Shown here: positions 1 to 6,336 of the stretch, in pieces | Position numbering within the stretch: the first letter of the stretch is position 1 | Layout: each line of letters starts with the position of its first letter | Assembly (NCBI GenBank): GCA_001768515.1 | Contig: MEOA01000018.1 | Location: 1 to 64,000 of the forward strand | DNA: 64,000 nt | Direction: 5' to 3' | From: Bacteroidetes bacterium GWE2_42_24 | Lineage (GTDB): Bacteria; Bacteroidota; Bacteroidia; Bacteroidales; TTA-H9 | Position numbers and translations under genes: made by a program | Notes under the pieces: model-generated | The model's database searches: none | Told to the model about the DNA's origin: nothing | What the model saw: the letters and a program-made list of their open reading frames with translations, nothing else

Positions 1-27
1 CATGGAAACCATAAAAATGTACCGAAC

Positions 28-291
28 TCAGGACCCGATAGTCCAAGAAATTAGATTACTACAATATTCTAAAACATAACCAATAACATTCACCAGTAAA
101 GCCGGGATCAACTTTCCGTTTCTTTGAACATAAAGAGTGTCACCTGCCGATAGCTGGCCGGTATTGGGGAACCTTACGTAAATGCTTTGTCCGGTAACAT
201 ACGATACAGCTCCCTCAAGCGGAACCTCCCCTGTCTGTGCCTTTACAGATAACAATACAAGGCTAAACAATGCGATCAGCAGATAGCGCAT
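28..291 (-). CDS. small exported protein, last gene of the multihaem cytochrome operon
   Basis: An 87-residue protein. It opens with a clear signal peptide (MRYLLIALFSLVLLSVKAQ) and continues with a short hydrophilic stretch (AVSYVTGQSIYVRF, then SAGDTLYVQRNGKLIPALLVN). An upstream start at 399 would place 36 charged residues before the signal peptide, so the ATG at 291 is preferred. It begins 10 bases after the 28-haem cytochrome gene and is presumably co-transcribed with it. From memory, similar Bacteroidota proteins run much longer after the PALLVN segment, so this copy may be truncated; all three frames close within about 40 bases of that point. No enzymatic motif is visible. An envelope role linked to the cytochromes is inferred only from position. 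Confidence 0.55.
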   Translation of the reverse strand: MRYLLIALFSLVLLSVKAQTGEVPLEGAVSYVTGQSIYVRFPNTGQLSAGDTLYVQRNGKLIPALLVNVIGYVLEYCSNLISWTIGS

Positions 292-301
292 AATATTTGC
301 T

Positions 302-2518
302 TTAATTCGTTTTATCAAGGCGGCCCGGTAAAATAATTTTTGCACTGTTACCACGCGGATGACAGTTAAGGCAGGCGAGGCTGTTATATGAATATCCACT
401 TACACCCTGATGCTCCTGATTCATACTTGTCTGATTGTGCTCATGGCAGTCAATACAGGAGAATACGGCATAGTTGGAAGGATTGGTATGGCAATCAGAA
501 CAGGTATTCCATTCCCCGTGGTGCTTACCTGAGTATATGGGAAAATACTGCCCGTCATGGTTAAAAGTCGAGGGGCTCCAGCTATTCTGGTTATGGCAAT
601 CTTCACAGGTTACAGGAAACTGCGCTGAACTGTGGGGTGGGTCAACAGTTTGGTTGTAGTCGCTCTGATGACATCCAATACAGGTATTAGGCGTAGTAAT
701 GTAATTCCCGGCATGGCATGAACTGCATTCATTGGCAATGCTTGCATGAGCTCCCGACAACAGATAATAGTTATTATGGACAGGGAAAGTTGCCGGCACC
801 CATCCCGGATTTGTAGTATGGCATGTGGCACACTCGGTTGAAAGGTTTAATGCAACATGACCAGGATTCAGACTTTGATTGTAATTGGCTGCATGACAAT
901 CGACACAAAGAATTGGGGTGTTTGTATATCCATTGGTATGGCATTCTGAACAAGCCGCTGTGACATGAGCACCGGTTAGTGGAAATCCTGAGATGCTATG
1001 ATTAAAGGCACCCTCGGCAGACCCCGTAGGATGGCAGGCAAAACAAGCCTGACTGTTATACTGATAACCAGTAACCCCACTATGCTTGTCATTCATGTCG
1101 GGTTGGTTATGATCATGACAGTCGATACATGTAAACTGACCATAATTGGCAGGATTGGTGTGGCAATCGGTGCAAATGCTCCACTCACCATTGTGCTTTC
1201 CCGAATAAATCGGAAACGATTTGCTATCATGCTCTGTATATTGGGCGGGTTTCCAATCCGGGTTTGTCGTATGGCAATCAGCACACTCCCGAGAGAAATT
1301 AAGCGACAGATGATTGGGGTTTATTGTCTGGTTATAGTTGGCCTCATGGCAATCGATGCATAGGGTCGGGGTATTCTGAAAGCCATTGGTATGACAGTCA
1401 AGACAGTTAGTGGTAATATGAGCGCCAGTCAGAGGGAACCCGGAGGTGGCATGGTTAAAGGTACCTTCACCGGAACCTGTAGGATGGCAGGCAAAACAGG
1501 CCACACTGTTATATTGGTATCCATTGACATCTCTGTGCTTATTGTTCATATCGGATTGATTGTGCTCGTGACAATCAATGCAAGAAAACTGGGCATAAGA
1601 TGACGGATTGGTATGGCAATCGGTACAATTATTCCATTCCCCATTGTGCTTACCTGAATAGATAGGAAATGAACGACTGTCATGTTCACGATACGCGGCA
1701 GGCCTCCATCCGGGATTTGTGGTATGGCATTCGGTACACGAAGTCGGGAAACCCAGCGTACGGTGTGAGGGATTATTCGTACCGTTGTAATCATCCAGGT
1801 GACATGAAAGGCACTCGGCAGAAGTGCTATTATAATCGTTTGTCTGATGGCACTGTCGACAATCCTTAATATCGTGTCCTCCTGTCAGGGGGAAGAAATT
1901 ATGATTGATACCCGCTCCCGACCAAGAATATGAATTGATGTTATGGCAATCTGTACATTGGGTTGAGTAGTTACTGACCAGATGGTTGGGATTCTGAGCC
2001 GAAAGATAATTATCGCTATGGCAATCATAACAATTCACTCCAAGTGGTTCAAACAGAATAGGCGTGGTACCGGATAAGGATACCGGTTGCCCTGCCAGTG
2101 TTCCATGACAATCGCGACAATCGGCTGTAATATGTGGCCCGATCAAAGGAAACCGGCTTTGCTGGTGAAGGGCTGTTATATCAGGCACAATCCATGAGTT
2201 AGGGGTATGGCACCTGCCACAGTCGGAACCCACAGTCTGTTGGTGAACATCCACATGGCAAGAGGTACATTCTTTGCCGGCACTGGCGAACTCAAGTGTT
2301 GCGTGACAGTCCTTACAGGTAATCACCCGATGCTGTCCCTCTAAAGCAAATCCTGTTTTACTATGATCAAACGACAATTTCTGAAGTTCAATCTTCCACC
2401 CATCAGTATTGTGGCAATCCTTACAGCTTAACGAGAATCCTTTCCCATGTGGTGATTTCTGTCCTTGAGACACCATTATCATGATGGTCAGCAAGAAAGT
2501 TAATGACAGTCTTCGCAT
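302..2518 (-). CDS. exported 28-haem c-type cytochrome
   Basis: A 738-residue protein with an N-terminal signal peptide (MRRLSLTFLLTIMIMVSQGQ) and 28 CxxCH haem-attachment motifs, from CKDCH at residue 32 to CLNCH near 720. Many extra histidines (GxH, xFDH) could serve as distal ligands, as in cytochrome c3/c7-type multihaem proteins. Residues 266-416 and 417-567 form an exact-length tandem duplication of a 151-residue, six-haem module, and 568-738 is a partial third copy. It has no membrane anchor or T9SS tail, so it is probably periplasmic or held on the cell surface by partners. Its ATG lies inside the last codons of the preceding 20-haem gene (19-base overlap), indicating coupled translation. 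Likely role: long-range electron transfer across the envelope; the terminal acceptor is unknown. Confidence 0.93.
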   Translation of the reverse strand: MRRLSLTFLLTIMIMVSQGQKSPHGKGFSLSCKDCHNTDGWKIELQKLSFDHSKTGFALEGQHRVITCKDCHATLEFASAGKECTSCHVDVHQQTVGSDCGRCHTPNSWIVPDITALHQQSRFPLIGPHITADCRDCHGTLAGQPVSLSGTTPILFEPLGVNCYDCHSDNYLSAQNPNHLVSNYSTQCTDCHNINSYSWSGAGINHNFFPLTGGHDIKDCRQCHQTNDYNSTSAECLSCHLDDYNGTNNPSHRTLGFPTSCTECHTTNPGWRPAAYREHDSRSFPIYSGKHNGEWNNCTDCHTNPSSYAQFSCIDCHEHNQSDMNNKHRDVNGYQYNSVACFACHPTGSGEGTFNHATSGFPLTGAHITTNCLDCHTNGFQNTPTLCIDCHEANYNQTINPNHLSLNFSRECADCHTTNPDWKPAQYTEHDSKSFPIYSGKHNGEWSICTDCHTNPANYGQFTCIDCHDHNQPDMNDKHSGVTGYQYNSQACFACHPTGSAEGAFNHSISGFPLTGAHVTAACSECHTNGYTNTPILCVDCHAANYNQSLNPGHVALNLSTECATCHTTNPGWVPATFPVHNNYYLLSGAHASIANECSSCHAGNYITTPNTCIGCHQSDYNQTVDPPHSSAQFPVTCEDCHNQNSWSPSTFNHDGQYFPIYSGKHHGEWNTCSDCHTNPSNYAVFSCIDCHEHNQTSMNQEHQGVSGYSYNSLACLNCHPRGNSAKIILPGRLDKTN

Positions 2519-4107
2519 TTGAATTTTTCAATTTTATACCAGGTGAAGATGCGTTGATTATCCTGTCGGGACTTATGACAGCCGCTACAGGCAACAGTAT
2601 TATGTTTTCCGTCAAGAGGAAAACGCGTAGCCCCGTGATCAAACCGGGAGGCAGGAAGGAAGCTTTTGGTATCATGACATCGGGCACAATCTGTATATGA
2701 AGATATAGCAAACTGCTCCCCATGAATATCCGCGTGGCAGTCGTTGCATTTATCTGACAAACCAGCAAAACGAAAATCAGCTATGCTCTTTCCGTTCAAC
2801 GGGAGGTGACATTTACGGCAATCAGGTATAGCGTGGGCATCGGTTAAGGGAAATTTCGTTAACGAATGATCAAAAACAACTGTATTCCATCGCGTTTCTT
2901 TGTGACATGTCTTGCATGACTTATCGGGGTAATAACTGGCTGTAATCTGCTTATCATGCACATCGATATGGCAATCGACACATTTATTCCCCATATCAGA
3001 GAACTTCCATGCATCAGCTTTTTTATGGCAGGCAATACATGGCGTTGCCAAATGTGCATCAAAAAGCTGAAAAGAAGTTTCATTATGTCTGGAAACTGTA
3101 AATGTCGAAGGTGTATATCCCATCTCGGTATGACAGTCTGCACAGTCGGAACCAGCATCCCGCCTTGAAAAGTCACCTTTGTGATAATCGACATGACAAT
3201 CGGTACATCTGGAAAATGAGAGAGGTGCTGTAAAACCATTTTTGTGGCATTTCTCACATGCAACTTGTTTATGAAGCCCTTTCAACTTGAAATTTGTCTT
3301 GCTGTGATCAAAGGAGTTGTCAGTTTTCAGCAATTTGAACGACGTCTCCGAATGACATTGCGCACAGTTTTGTCCAAATTTGTTTTCGTGCGGGTCTTTA
3401 TGACAATCTGTGCATTTGCCATGGCCTATGTCAGTAAACTGCTGAAATTTCACTCCATTCTTCATGGAAGTTTTATGGCAATCAACGCAAAGAACCTGCT
3501 GGTGCTTTCCTTTCAGTTGAAAATTTGTCTTGGTGTGGTCGAATTTAGTGGCTGGTTTAAAACTTTTGGCATCATGACAGTCTATACAACTGGCTGAAAG
3601 GGTTCCCTGATGATAATCCTGATGACAGCCCAGACATTCTGTTTTAAGACCCAGAAAGGTCCCTGAGTTTTTCTTTAATTTGGCATCGTTGATAAAATCA
3701 GGCTTGTGGCAGTCTTTACATGCTTTCCCTGAATGAGCACCATCAAGCGGATAACCAGTCAGGTTATGGTTAAACTTTTCGGTATTAAAACGAATAATCT
3801 GGAAATTACGGCCATGATGGTCGTTATGACACGAAGCACAGGTTTTTCCCCTTACTTCTGTTGAGGCATGGTATCCTTTCTTCTGATCAATTCTTGCTTT
3901 GATTTCCTGATGGCAGGCCAGACACTTTTCATTCGACACCTTTTTTCCGAGAGTATGGCACTTTGTACAATTAGACATACCTTCAAGATGTGCATGAGCC
4001 TTTACCAAGTCGCCGGGTGAAATCTGACCGATAGCAAATTGAAATGAAAACAGCCAGAGAATGGTGAAAAGTGTGTATTTAAATTTGATTAGCAATAGAT
4101 AATTCAT
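2500..4107 (-). CDS. exported 20-haem c-type cytochrome
   Basis: A 535-residue protein with a hydrophobic N-terminal signal (TLFTILWLFSFQFAIGQ) and 20 CxxCH motifs, starting with CTKCH near residue 48. The last motif, CEDCH, is immediately followed by the stop codon, so the protein ends on its final haem-binding histidine. Repeats of the form FDHxxTxFxLxGxH followed 5-7 residues later by CxxCH mark a c3/c7-like fold. It lies 14 bases after the FeS/FAD oxidoreductase gene and overlaps the 28-haem gene by 19 bases. The operon order suggests it receives electrons from the membrane pair upstream and passes them to the larger cytochrome; that direction is inferred. Confidence 0.93.
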   Translation of the reverse strand: MNYLLLIKFKYTLFTILWLFSFQFAIGQISPGDLVKAHAHLEGMSNCTKCHTLGKKVSNEKCLACHQEIKARIDQKKGYHASTEVRGKTCASCHNDHHGRNFQIIRFNTEKFNHNLTGYPLDGAHSGKACKDCHKPDFINDAKLKKNSGTFLGLKTECLGCHQDYHQGTLSASCIDCHDAKSFKPATKFDHTKTNFQLKGKHQQVLCVDCHKTSMKNGVKFQQFTDIGHGKCTDCHKDPHENKFGQNCAQCHSETSFKLLKTDNSFDHSKTNFKLKGLHKQVACEKCHKNGFTAPLSFSRCTDCHVDYHKGDFSRRDAGSDCADCHTEMGYTPSTFTVSRHNETSFQLFDAHLATPCIACHKKADAWKFSDMGNKCVDCHIDVHDKQITASYYPDKSCKTCHKETRWNTVVFDHSLTKFPLTDAHAIPDCRKCHLPLNGKSIADFRFAGLSDKCNDCHADIHGEQFAISSYTDCARCHDTKSFLPASRFDHGATRFPLDGKHNTVACSGCHKSRQDNQRIFTWYKIEKFKCEDCH

Positions 4108-4121
4108 AAGTGGTAATCTAT

Positions 4122-5462
4122 TTAATCATCAATATGTGTTAAAATGGCCTCACCAAACTTCTTAGTAATAACAATCCCAGCCTTTTCCAGAAATTGAATA
4201 GGCAATTCACCCCCCGCGAAGACATAGACAAGGTCGTTTTCTAATATAGCCTCAGTTCCCGACAAAGAATCAACAATATGCACACAGTCTTTCTCAATGG
4301 AGGTCAGTTGCGTATTAAACCTGACATTCACCATTGAAGAAGCCATGGCCTCATTGATCTTTTTACTGTTTTTTGGCTTAATCCTGTTGAATTTTTCACT
4401 TCGGTAAGATAGCACAACCTTATTGTGTTCTGCCAACAAAAGGGCAGATTCAATGGCCGAATCACCTCCCCCCACAACAACAATGTTTTTTCCCCTGATT
4501 TCATCGGCTTCAATCAACCGATAAGCTACTTTTTCGGTGTTTTCACCCGGAATGCCAAGTTTTCGTGGTGTTCCGCGCCGTCCTACCGCCAGCAAAACGG
4601 CCTTTGCCGACAGTTGCTCGCCGCCTTCAGTATCAACCAGAAAATGATCTCCGGCATTGATTACCGTTTCCACCTTGGTATTTTCTTGAATTGAAATGGC
4701 ATGCTTACCCAAAACTTCATTCCAAAGGTTCAGCAATTCCTGCTTACCTGTTTCATACAACTTCACTTTACCATGCAATGGAAGCATCATTGGCGATGTC
4801 ATAACGATTTTTGAACGGGGGAAGGAGAACACTGTGCCTCCAAGGGTATCCTGCTCAAGAGCCAGAAACCTCAAACCATGCTTTTTAGCATTCAGGGCGG
4901 CTGAAATACCAGCAGGTCCTGCCCCGACAATTATCAGGTCATAATCGCCCTTGCGATTCTTTATTGAACTTTTCACAAGATTATCAACTGCCTGCCGTCC
5001 CTGCTCTACAGCATTCCTAATGAGCCCCATTCCACCAAGCTCTCCGGCGATAAAAATACCCGGCACATTAGTTTCAAAGGTCTGACCAACATGCGGCAGT
5101 TCCACTCCTCGTTGTTCGGTGCCAATACATAATGTTATTGCTTCGGTGGGGCATGCATGGAAGCATGCACCATGCCCGATACATCGCGATGCATTGATAA
5201 CCGTCGCCTTTCCGTTCAGAATGCCCAGAATATCCTTTTCGGGACAGGCTGCCACACAGGCCCCTGTCTTGATACACTTTTTGGGGTCTACAACCGGGTG
5301 AAGCGAAACCGGCTCATAAAGCCCTTCTGCCTTGGCAAGGGCAATTTTTCGACCTACTTCATGCGATTCACGATGCAATTTTCTAAGATAGAAGACTACC
5401 ACAGCGATAGCAAAAAGGCCAAGCAAGCCATACGTGATGAGTTGTTCAACAAATACTTCCAT
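4122..5462 (-). CDS. membrane-anchored ferredoxin-FAD/NAD(P) oxidoreductase (thioredoxin reductase-like)
   Basis: 446 residues from the ATG at 5462; a TTG start at 5489 would overlap the upstream gene. Domains in order: one transmembrane helix (about residues 8-26); a ferredoxin-like segment with C63-x5-C69-x3-C73-P and C94-x5-C100-x3-C104-P; a short ETNVPGIFIAGELGGMG segment; and a two-dinucleotide-binding flavoprotein domain with GAGPAG (180-185) for FAD and GGGDSA (331-336) for NAD(P)H. In both cluster motifs the usual second cysteine is replaced, by Thr66 and His97. The CxxC redox disulfide of true thioredoxin reductase is absent. It sits 4 bases after the cytochrome b-like gene and 14 before the 20-haem gene. 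It probably moves electrons between a cytoplasmic pyridine nucleotide and the cytochromes. Confidence 0.85.
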   Translation of the reverse strand: MEVFVEQLITYGLLGLFAIAVVVFYLRKLHRESHEVGRKIALAKAEGLYEPVSLHPVVDPKKCIKTGACVAACPEKDILGILNGKATVINASRCIGHGACFHACPTEAITLCIGTEQRGVELPHVGQTFETNVPGIFIAGELGGMGLIRNAVEQGRQAVDNLVKSSIKNRKGDYDLIIVGAGPAGISAALNAKKHGLRFLALEQDTLGGTVFSFPRSKIVMTSPMMLPLHGKVKLYETGKQELLNLWNEVLGKHAISIQENTKVETVINAGDHFLVDTEGGEQLSAKAVLLAVGRRGTPRKLGIPGENTEKVAYRLIEADEIRGKNIVVVGGGDSAIESALLLAEHNKVVLSYRSEKFNRIKPKNSKKINEAMASSMVNVRFNTQLTSIEKDCVHIVDSLSGTEAILENDLVYVFAGGELPIQFLEKAGIVITKKFGEAILTHIDD

Positions 5463-5466
5463 AGAT

Positions 5467-6336
5467 TTAAAATATCCAGCGATAACCAAATGCGATCGTG
5501 ACCCCTACATGAATCAACATTACCAAAATCATTATGAGGGCAAAAGGCATGTGTATCACATGCCAGAACCGAAAAAGATTCTGCATGGTTTCAAGCCTCT
5601 CTATCCTTCTTTTCAGCGAATTATCAGCTTTTACAAGCCTGACAATTGTATGCCTCTGACTGGCCGAAACATTTTTTTGCTTCATCAAATGTTTAATATC
5701 GCCAACCAGTTTTCTGTCTGTACTCAGTTTCTTAAAATAACCGGTAAAAGGACTTTTCCCGGCCATTAATTGCGTACGTTCGTATTCTTTCACCAATTGT
5801 TCATAGTATTCGTTGTTGTCCCCCAACAATTCCCCGATTTGTTGCTCGAGGGGTTCTTTTCCGGCGCGCACCTCCTGAAGAGTCAACTCCCTCCCCTCAA
5901 TGGTTCGTGGTATCTGAAGGTAGATGAAACGCCCCAGTATCCCGCTGGCAAATACGGCTACCATACTCCAGAAACTCACGGCAACCAGACCGCCGAACTT
6001 CATGGCGGTATGAAACAGGATGAGTGTGGGCCCTAGTGAACAAAGAAAGATATGAAATTCTAACCAGTGCTTCAACAGCCCCAACCGTTGCATCCACCGC
6101 CATCTCTTACGGGCCATATACAACCCCATACCAAAGATCATCATCAGGGTACCGGCAATTCCCAATCCATGCCCCACAAGCCCGCTTGGACGAAACGCAT
6201 CATGCCCGGGATGAAAGAACCGCTCTTCCAAACTCGTCGTATAATAGTCATAGCCCTTATATACAATTATTAATAGTACAATGAAATATATTGTACTCAA
6301 TGCTCCGATATACAAAAGATGTATTTTCCTGGACAT
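5467..6336 (-). CDS. cytochrome b561-like integral membrane protein
   Basis: 289 residues from the ATG at 6336; an in-frame TTG at 6366 is less likely. There are about five hydrophobic helices: residues 6-27, 53-74, 92-112, 115-138 and 258-283. Histidines inside or at the edge of helices (H56, H95, H109, H259, H262, H276) are well placed to bind haem b. A charged cytoplasmic-looking segment at about 145-250 separates helix 4 from the last helix. It is the first gene of the five-gene minus-strand operon, 4 bases upstream of the FeS/FAD oxidoreductase. Inferred role: quinone- or haem-linked passage of electrons through the inner membrane to the periplasmic cytochromes. The family assignment rests on helix and histidine pattern only. 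Confidence 0.7.
   Translation of the reverse strand: MSRKIHLLYIGALSTIYFIVLLIIVYKGYDYYTTSLEERFFHPGHDAFRPSGLVGHGLGIAGTLMMIFGMGLYMARKRWRWMQRLGLLKHWLEFHIFLCSLGPTLILFHTAMKFGGLVAVSFWSMVAVFASGILGRFIYLQIPRTIEGRELTLQEVRAGKEPLEQQIGELLGDNNEYYEQLVKEYERTQLMAGKSPFTGYFKKLSTDRKLVGDIKHLMKQKNVSASQRHTIVRLVKADNSLKRRIERLETMQNLFRFWHVIHMPFALIMILVMLIHVGVTIAFGYRWIF

Follow-up and report, generated by a model that had tools for sequence, protein, structure and literature searches.

A PCC3-like operon of Bacteroidota with a putative NAD(P)H input, and the splitting of its barrel gene by a mobile element in one genome

Among described systems, the closest to the operon reported here is PCC3, a kind of porin-cytochrome cluster. 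PCC3 clusters were first described, as putative ones, in Proteobacteria, including iron(II) oxidisers, and they encode a barrel, an extracellular cytochrome with a median of 34 haems, a periplasmic cytochrome with a median of 21, and a membrane protein of ~300 residues that carries WX3HX13H twice together with SGXXG and was proposed to be quinone active like cytochrome b (He et al. 2017, PMC5566968). The PCC3 protein with 21 to 27 haems may span the periplasm (PMC10734462), and PCC3 is functionally unverified (PMC12442390). Here, we describe a related operon at the start of a 64,000-nucleotide stretch (the window) of Bacteroidetes bacterium GWE2_42_24 (assembly GCA_001768515.1, contig MEOA01000018.1, positions 1 to 64,000; contig C18 below). 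We favour, with moderate confidence, the view that it specifies an electron conduit of PCC3-like type that crosses both membranes, with its own NAD(P)H input and with a barrel gene that is broken in this genome.

The original prediction, made from the window, described five minus-strand genes, the last of them for a small exported protein, and took the lack of an outer-membrane porin as the mark that sets the operon apart from Mtr-type conduits. Open reading frame (ORF) analysis of the window recovered four intact minus-strand genes with ATG starts (302-6336) (Table 1). Re-measurement confirmed the claimed gaps (4, 14, and 10 bases) and the single 19-base overlap, and a recount of CXXCH motifs in the translations of the two cytochromes gave the same 20 + 28 = 48. 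The fifth gene is a truncated gene piece joined to the end of a repeat: only 82-291 of its 87-residue ORF is host coding, corresponding to codons 1-70 of a barrel gene, and 17 codons of a mobile element follow. In the assembly, which has 67 contigs, contig C18 ends at window base 1. Bases 1-120 match 10 places in the same genome, each at most 11 bases from a contig end, and in the columns common to all ten copies the sequences are identical up to base 81 and unrelated beyond. Since the shared sequence stops sharply at base 81 in ten places, we assign 1-81 to the end of a multicopy mobile element. The opposite end of the element matches 11 places of the genome at 100% identity and one more weakly. 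The two ends (window 1-81 and G000:C39:1-88) are imperfectly inverted and start with GGTT(A/G)TGTTTTA, the element is present in about ten copies and makes an 8-bp target duplication, and many contigs of the assembly terminate in it.

The rest of the barrel gene lies on another contig. The corresponding gene of a genome of the same genus (G002) encodes 545 residues, and its product, used as a query, found two matches in GWE2_42_24, namely the window fragment and the start of contig C39; no second copy of the barrel gene was found in this search. The C39 start encodes, without a stop, the counterpart of residues 77-545 of the G002 barrel at 80% identity. The sequence ATGTTATT (gene strand) adjoins the element in the host sequence of both C18 and C39 and represents the 8-bp target duplication. 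The operon thus seems to lack a porin because an insertion split the barrel gene across two contigs, and the absence of a porin is an artefact of this insertion and wrong for the operon as a type: a barrel gene is found in 54 of the 55 best loci with room for it (see below), and it is present but interrupted here. Given the split and the lack of a second copy, the conduit is probably cut in this genome, at least in the assembled population, and this copy of the operon probably cannot reach the cell exterior.

Table 1. Positions in the window of the operon genes and of the element that interrupts the barrel gene
Feature	Position	Strand	Details
Inner-membrane protein, predicted two-haem b cytochrome, 289 aa	5467..6336	-	W91-x3-H95-x13-H109, S131-G-x-x-G135, W258-x3-H262-x13-H276
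FeS/FAD/NAD(P) oxidoreductase, 446 aa	4122..5462	-	N-terminal membrane helix, two ferredoxin-type motifs, YpdA/FNR-like flavoprotein domain
20-haem c-type cytochrome, Sec-type leader, 535 aa	2500..4107	-	20 CXXCH
28-haem c-type cytochrome, 738 aa	302..2518	-	28 CXXCH; 151-aa six-haem internal repeat
5' fragment (70 codons) of predicted outer-membrane beta-barrel gene	82..291	-	Remainder at G000:C39:89-1495, outside the window
8-bp target-site duplication, ATGTTATT on gene strand	82..89		Second copy on contig C39
End of multicopy insertion sequence (IS)-like mobile element, also contig end	1..81		Ten genome places, one sharp boundary

Conservation of the gene order in other Bacteroidota, which the original prediction had named as a check, was found both in close matches and across the phylum. 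When species genomes were scanned with the oxidoreductase alignment, 530 hits to the pattern were obtained. Of these, 502 encode a relative, and the best 80 of the 502 were examined in context; being selected as best matches, these loci are biased to close kin. The titles of 79 of the 80 name Bacteroidota groups or genera, including Bacteroidetes, Bacteroidales, Prolixibacteraceae, Marinilabiliales, and Saprospiraceae, and the remaining one (L113) is from an uncultured bacterium. The gene for the membrane protein lies directly upstream of that for the oxidoreductase, the query, in all 80 loci, and cytochromes and barrel follow in 54 of the 55 with room downstream. The barrel gene comes after two cytochrome genes in 50 of these loci and after three in 4, and at least three of the 54 barrels are cut by a contig end (L040, L074, and L095). 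Twenty-five of the 26 loci without the full set end too soon, and one, L098, has room. At L098:632-2812, a membrane-protein gene split over two frames and a lone oxidoreductase gene look like a decayed or misassembled remnant.

Closer to the window, 8 of 60 genomes compared, that of GWE2_42_24 included, encode the membrane protein, G050 only at E 2.8e-4. The full set is present in five relatives (G002, G046, G010, G047, and G013), with a fifth protein of 532-550 residues; G010 has an extra cytochrome gene ahead of the barrel gene, and the G021 contig stops within the gene for the membrane protein. A wider sample of 392 genomes across the phylum contained 45 with a match to the oxidoreductase at E 1e-60, that of GWE2_42_24 included, and 25 of the other 44 were read. 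Five of the 19 unread matches (G078, G121, G199, G283, and G382) arise only through proteins of 828-889 residues with a related flavoprotein domain. The gene order of the window (first order) occurs in 15 of the 25 loci: 12 are complete, counting L121, where the 20-haem gene lies in two frames, two are cut by contig ends, and one (in G353) is without a recognisable membrane protein. A second order, which belongs to distant lineages and in which the membrane protein, the 20-haem cytochrome, the larger cytochrome, and the barrel precede the oxidoreductase, occurs in nine, eight of them complete; in L144 the contig start is too near to assign an order. Four operon parts diverge together (r 0.72-0.81, reached by 0 of 999 permutations in each of six pairs; mirror-tree analysis of 44 of the 80 loci), a signal that shared organism phylogeny alone can also give.

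The fifth protein is predicted to be an outer-membrane beta-barrel. An AlphaFold2 model (50/51 sequences; predicted local distance difference test [pLDDT] 81, predicted template modelling score [pTM] 0.64) has a small beta domain at residues 25-93, a disordered link, and 22 strands as counted from the listed elements. The 50 matches listed in each of two fold searches are outer-membrane barrels, e.g., PirA, Fiu, OccK, and FimD, and the best listed one aligned 332 residues at 4.6 Å (Z 18.8). The 50 matches listed in the second search contain no MtrB-type entry, which does not exclude one. Pfam returned no significant match for the barrels of six members, and a profile search of the PDB with the barrel gave nothing (best E 0.28). 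Against a model of the first-order barrels, those of the second order reach 26 to 170 bits.

We predict from its sequence that the inner-membrane protein is a two-haem b cytochrome. Six His residues, including the pairs H95/H109 and H262/H276, are invariant in 27 aligned sequences of both orders (with 19 of 73 first-order and seven of nine second-order sequences, L140 and L145 being left out); two WX3HX13H motifs are present in 25 of the 27 and SGxxG in all, as is typical of the PCC3 and PCC4 membrane proteins. By eye, L140 is without H56 and keeps both His pairs, and in L145 the first Trp is replaced by Tyr. Hydropathy gives four clear peaks, and the His-bearing segment 91-110 would be a fifth helix, the PCC3 protein having five. 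Of the earlier label "cytochrome b561-like," a weak similarity is left: PF01292 scores 14.8 bits against a gathering cut-off of 30.1, and DUF4405 is also below its cut-off, which places the protein in neither family. A PDB profile search found nothing significant for it (best E 0.24).

The FeS/FAD/NAD(P) oxidoreductase was correctly predicted as membrane anchored, with support from Pfam and NCBIfam for the assignment and from hydropathy for one N-terminal membrane helix. Two ferredoxin-type motifs, CxxTxxCxxxCP then CxxHxxCxxxCP, are followed by a flavoprotein domain that is nearest to YpdA/Bdr, thioredoxin reductase, and ferredoxin-NADP reductase, the closest solved sequences being of the YpdA/Bdr kind. 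Membership in the YpdA/Bdr bacillithiol disulphide reductase family (TIGR04018) was rejected at 154.5 bits against a curated cut-off of 339.9. His replaces the second Cys of the second motif in all 80 best loci, where it was part of the scan pattern and hence selected, and it is also present in the ten proteins found without the pattern (second order and L144). At the same place of the first motif, Thr or Ser is found in 80/80 first-order loci and Cys in seven of those ten proteins. The residue swaps in both motifs bear on the cluster type.

Plasmids provide further contexts. The membrane protein matches 46 plasmid records, of which four contexts were read. The complete operon (membrane protein, 281 residues; oxidoreductase, 440; barrel, 538; 23 + 40 haems) is found on plasmid pEMTOL02 of a cultured strain, Emticicia oligotrophica DSM 17448, directly behind the cytochrome-c assembly gene ccsA. 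Plasmids of Methylophaga, Sphingobium, and Spirosoma (L163, L164, and L165) encode homologues of the membrane protein with 24-28% identity and one of the two WX3HX13H motifs, which are flanked by a 2Fe-2S/FAD/NAD reductase on one side and a 7-haem cytochrome on the other; no barrel accompanies them, and copper and heavy-metal genes lie around. In Pfam, the reductases of Sphingobium and Spirosoma match FAD_binding_6, NAD_binding_1, and Fer2. Taken together, the pairings in the operon and on the plasmids indicate that such membrane proteins pair with two classes of NAD(P)H flavoprotein. On two of these three plasmids, a DUF1622 gene follows this reductase-membrane protein-7-haem module. Plasmid searches with the 20-haem protein (E 1e-10) found Emticicia only, and those with the oxidoreductase (E 1e-40) found Emticicia and part of one Pseudoalteromonas protein.

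Pfam and NCBIfam class both cytochromes as c7/class-III-type multihaem proteins. In an alignment of 42 sequences of the 20-haem protein (the window and 41 of 60 loci, all chosen for having 20 motifs), the 20 motifs and exactly 20 other His are invariant, and all of them are kept in nine of nine second-order proteins (51 sequences in total, none dropped); therefore, a pair of His ligands is available to each haem. Among the 54 loci, the first cytochrome carries 20 motifs in 48, 23 in four, 19 in one, and 11 in one. The second has 13-73 motifs in the 50 first-order loci with two cytochromes and as few as 10 in the second order. The 151-residue six-haem repeat of the 28-haem protein (residues 261-411 versus 412-562) is 73% identical. 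Haem number is thus highly variable in the second cytochrome, which contains internal repeats, and for the most part fixed at 20 (or 23) in the first; the 21, 24, or 27 haems of PCC3 periplasmic proteins likewise step by three. A PDB profile search with the 20-haem protein matched nothing but parts of other multihaem cytochromes (best E 1e-8).

The path first proposed, from NAD(P)H or quinone into the envelope and possibly on to an extracellular acceptor, stands as a chain from NAD(P)H over the b-haem protein to the multihaem cytochromes, by anatomy and by a gene set kept in two gene orders; its porin-free character does not. Our working hypothesis is that NAD(P)H would reduce the FAD of the membrane-tethered oxidoreductase, whose FeS clusters would hand electrons on to the pair of b haems in the inner-membrane protein. 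From there they would enter the 20-haem wire, which in turn would feed the large variable cytochrome, held in or at the 22-strand outer-membrane barrel, and the end acceptor would be extracellular, e.g., Fe(III), Mn(IV), or humics. In fermenters, the conduit could serve as an outlet for surplus reducing power. The sequence itself shows which genes are present and in what order, their motifs and conservation, and the insertion; the barrel fold is a prediction, and we infer the direction of flow, the acceptor, the place of both cytochromes, and NAD(P)H as the source. An outward direction is favoured by the strong reducing power of NAD(P)H and by the fermentative metabolism of many host groups.

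Several results weigh against such a conduit. L098 has no cytochromes or barrel within 10 kb, L148 (second order) has an unrecognised 611-residue ORF and no recognised barrel where one is expected, and L129 and L149 (G353) have the oxidoreductase, the 20-haem and a 34-haem cytochrome, and the barrel, and upstream no membrane protein can be recognised. Neither G001, of the same genus, nor any of six further members of the family encodes the operon's membrane protein. The model of the 20-haem protein has low global confidence (pTM 0.41), and since Foldseek returned no fold match for it, only two rows at E >5, we claim no shape or length for this protein. A hydropathy scan gave no peak for the leader of the 28-haem protein, so its export is only assumed. 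Labilibaculum euxinus and Labilibaculum sp. K2S carry the operon; only four of nine genomes of the genus of L. euxinus have the barrel, which weakens metal reduction by Labilibaculum as proof of operon function. Finally, the membrane protein here may equally well draw on menaquinol, in line with the proposal that the membrane proteins of PCC3 and PCC4 are quinone active like cytochrome b (PMC5566968).

This last proposal supports an alternative in which the menaquinol pool feeds the conduit via the b-haem protein and the oxidoreductase is a side branch, acting as a second entry point or as a maturation or repair factor; PCC3 clusters, as four genes without such an oxidoreductase, agree with it (PMC5566968, PMC12442390). 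We nonetheless judge it unlikely, considering that the oxidoreductase gene, albeit itself the query, adjoins that of the membrane protein throughout the best 80 loci and stays when the order changes and that the distant membrane-protein homologues of the three plasmid contexts pair with an unrelated NAD(P)H flavoprotein. Electrons might also flow inward, with Fe(II), reduced humics, or partner-cell electrons entering via the barrel and ending on NAD(P)+; PCC3 was described in iron(II) oxidisers (PMC5566968), and such wires could conduct both ways. The step from Fe(II) to NAD(P)+ is uphill and no energy source is visible in the operon, which makes this direction quite improbable. Moreover, the host groups in the locus titles (Bacteroidetes, Bacteroidales, Prolixibacteraceae, Marinilabiliales, and Saprospiraceae) are not known as autotrophic iron oxidisers.

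Still less probable, in our view, is that there is no conduit at all, the barrel being a substrate porin and the cytochromes serving a soluble periplasmic substrate or storing electrons. The 28-haem leader is without a lipoprotein cysteine, so that surface anchoring is not obvious, and the location of the cytochromes is a prediction; against this, the conserved candidate second His for each haem of the 20-haem protein leaves no obvious open catalytic haem there, and Pfam found no catalytic module in the five operon proteins. A porin-free system with a small exported fifth protein, which is what the window alone looks like, is ruled out, unless both contig ends are misassembled, by the element end at 1-81, the target duplication, and the second gene piece on C39, as well as by the full-length barrels of relatives.

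The PCC3-like conduit with an NAD(P)H input therefore remains our preferred reading. A bolder form of it can be put forward only tentatively: the operon might be a quinone-independent, envelope-spanning extracellular NAD(P)H oxidase, with a cytosolic FeS flavoprotein and a two-haem b protein as its input, the 20-haem protein as a fixed-length ruler of the periplasm, and a freely expanded barrel-held cytochrome (10 to 73 haems), and might account for fermentative metal and humic reduction in Bacteroidota. Baltic Sea isolates that include Labilibaculum reduce Fe(III), and one of them also Mn(IV), while fermenting; as possible candidates, that study put forward just a ferric reductase and an NrfHA-type cytochrome, and its authors asked for studies of the "fermentative type" (PMC5760507). 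The operon offers a concrete, conserved five-gene candidate for metal reduction by fermenting Bacteroidota. Should NAD(P)H be its direct source, the operon would provide an exit route distinct from the quinol-fed Mtr and Pcc systems, and it could plausibly contribute to the cycling of iron and humics in anoxic waters and sediments.

How the operon relates to known systems can be judged from motifs, gene content, and published descriptions. MtrCAB, MtoAB, and PioAB likewise combine a barrel with a periplasmic multihaem wire; the cytochromes here fall below the cut-off of the MtrA/DmsE decahaem family (TIGR03508; 45.8 and 51.3 bits versus 192.2), which excludes membership, and the barrel is without a significant Pfam match in the six members searched. 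The OmbB-OmaB-OmcB Pcc of Geobacter also has a barrel and two multihaem cytochromes per cluster and is set apart, by description, by 8 and 12 haems (PMC4245776) as against 20 + 28. Novel putative porin-cytochrome clusters were mentioned for Bacteroidetes in a text without gene detail, with a 51-haem example on an unbinned contig of unstated taxon (PMC6344600), and another Bacteroidetes cluster has seven genes, six of them for multihaem cytochromes (PMC8258643), versus five genes here. A literature search that did not cover supplements, preprints, and most subscription papers found the five-gene set with the oxidoreductase nowhere described. The route from NAD(P)H over FAD to two b haems across the membrane, with HX13H pairs, recalls NADPH oxidase and ferric reductase (PMC5566968), except that here two separate proteins would share the function, one of them with FeS clusters and a flavin domain of YpdA/FNR-like type. 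The operon is best described as a PCC3-like variant of the porin-cytochrome type, which would share with PCC3 the barrel, a large variable cytochrome, a cytochrome of ~20-27 haems, and a ~300-residue membrane protein with two WX3HX13H motifs and SGXXG. It differs in the 22 modelled strands of its barrel, as against up to 42 transmembrane regions in PCC3, and in the 20 or 23 haems of its first cytochrome, as against 21, 24, or 27. Relative to the four-gene PCC3 (PMC5566968, PMC12442390), it is also set apart by its Bacteroidota hosts and by a conserved NAD(P)H-type FeS flavoprotein as the fifth part.

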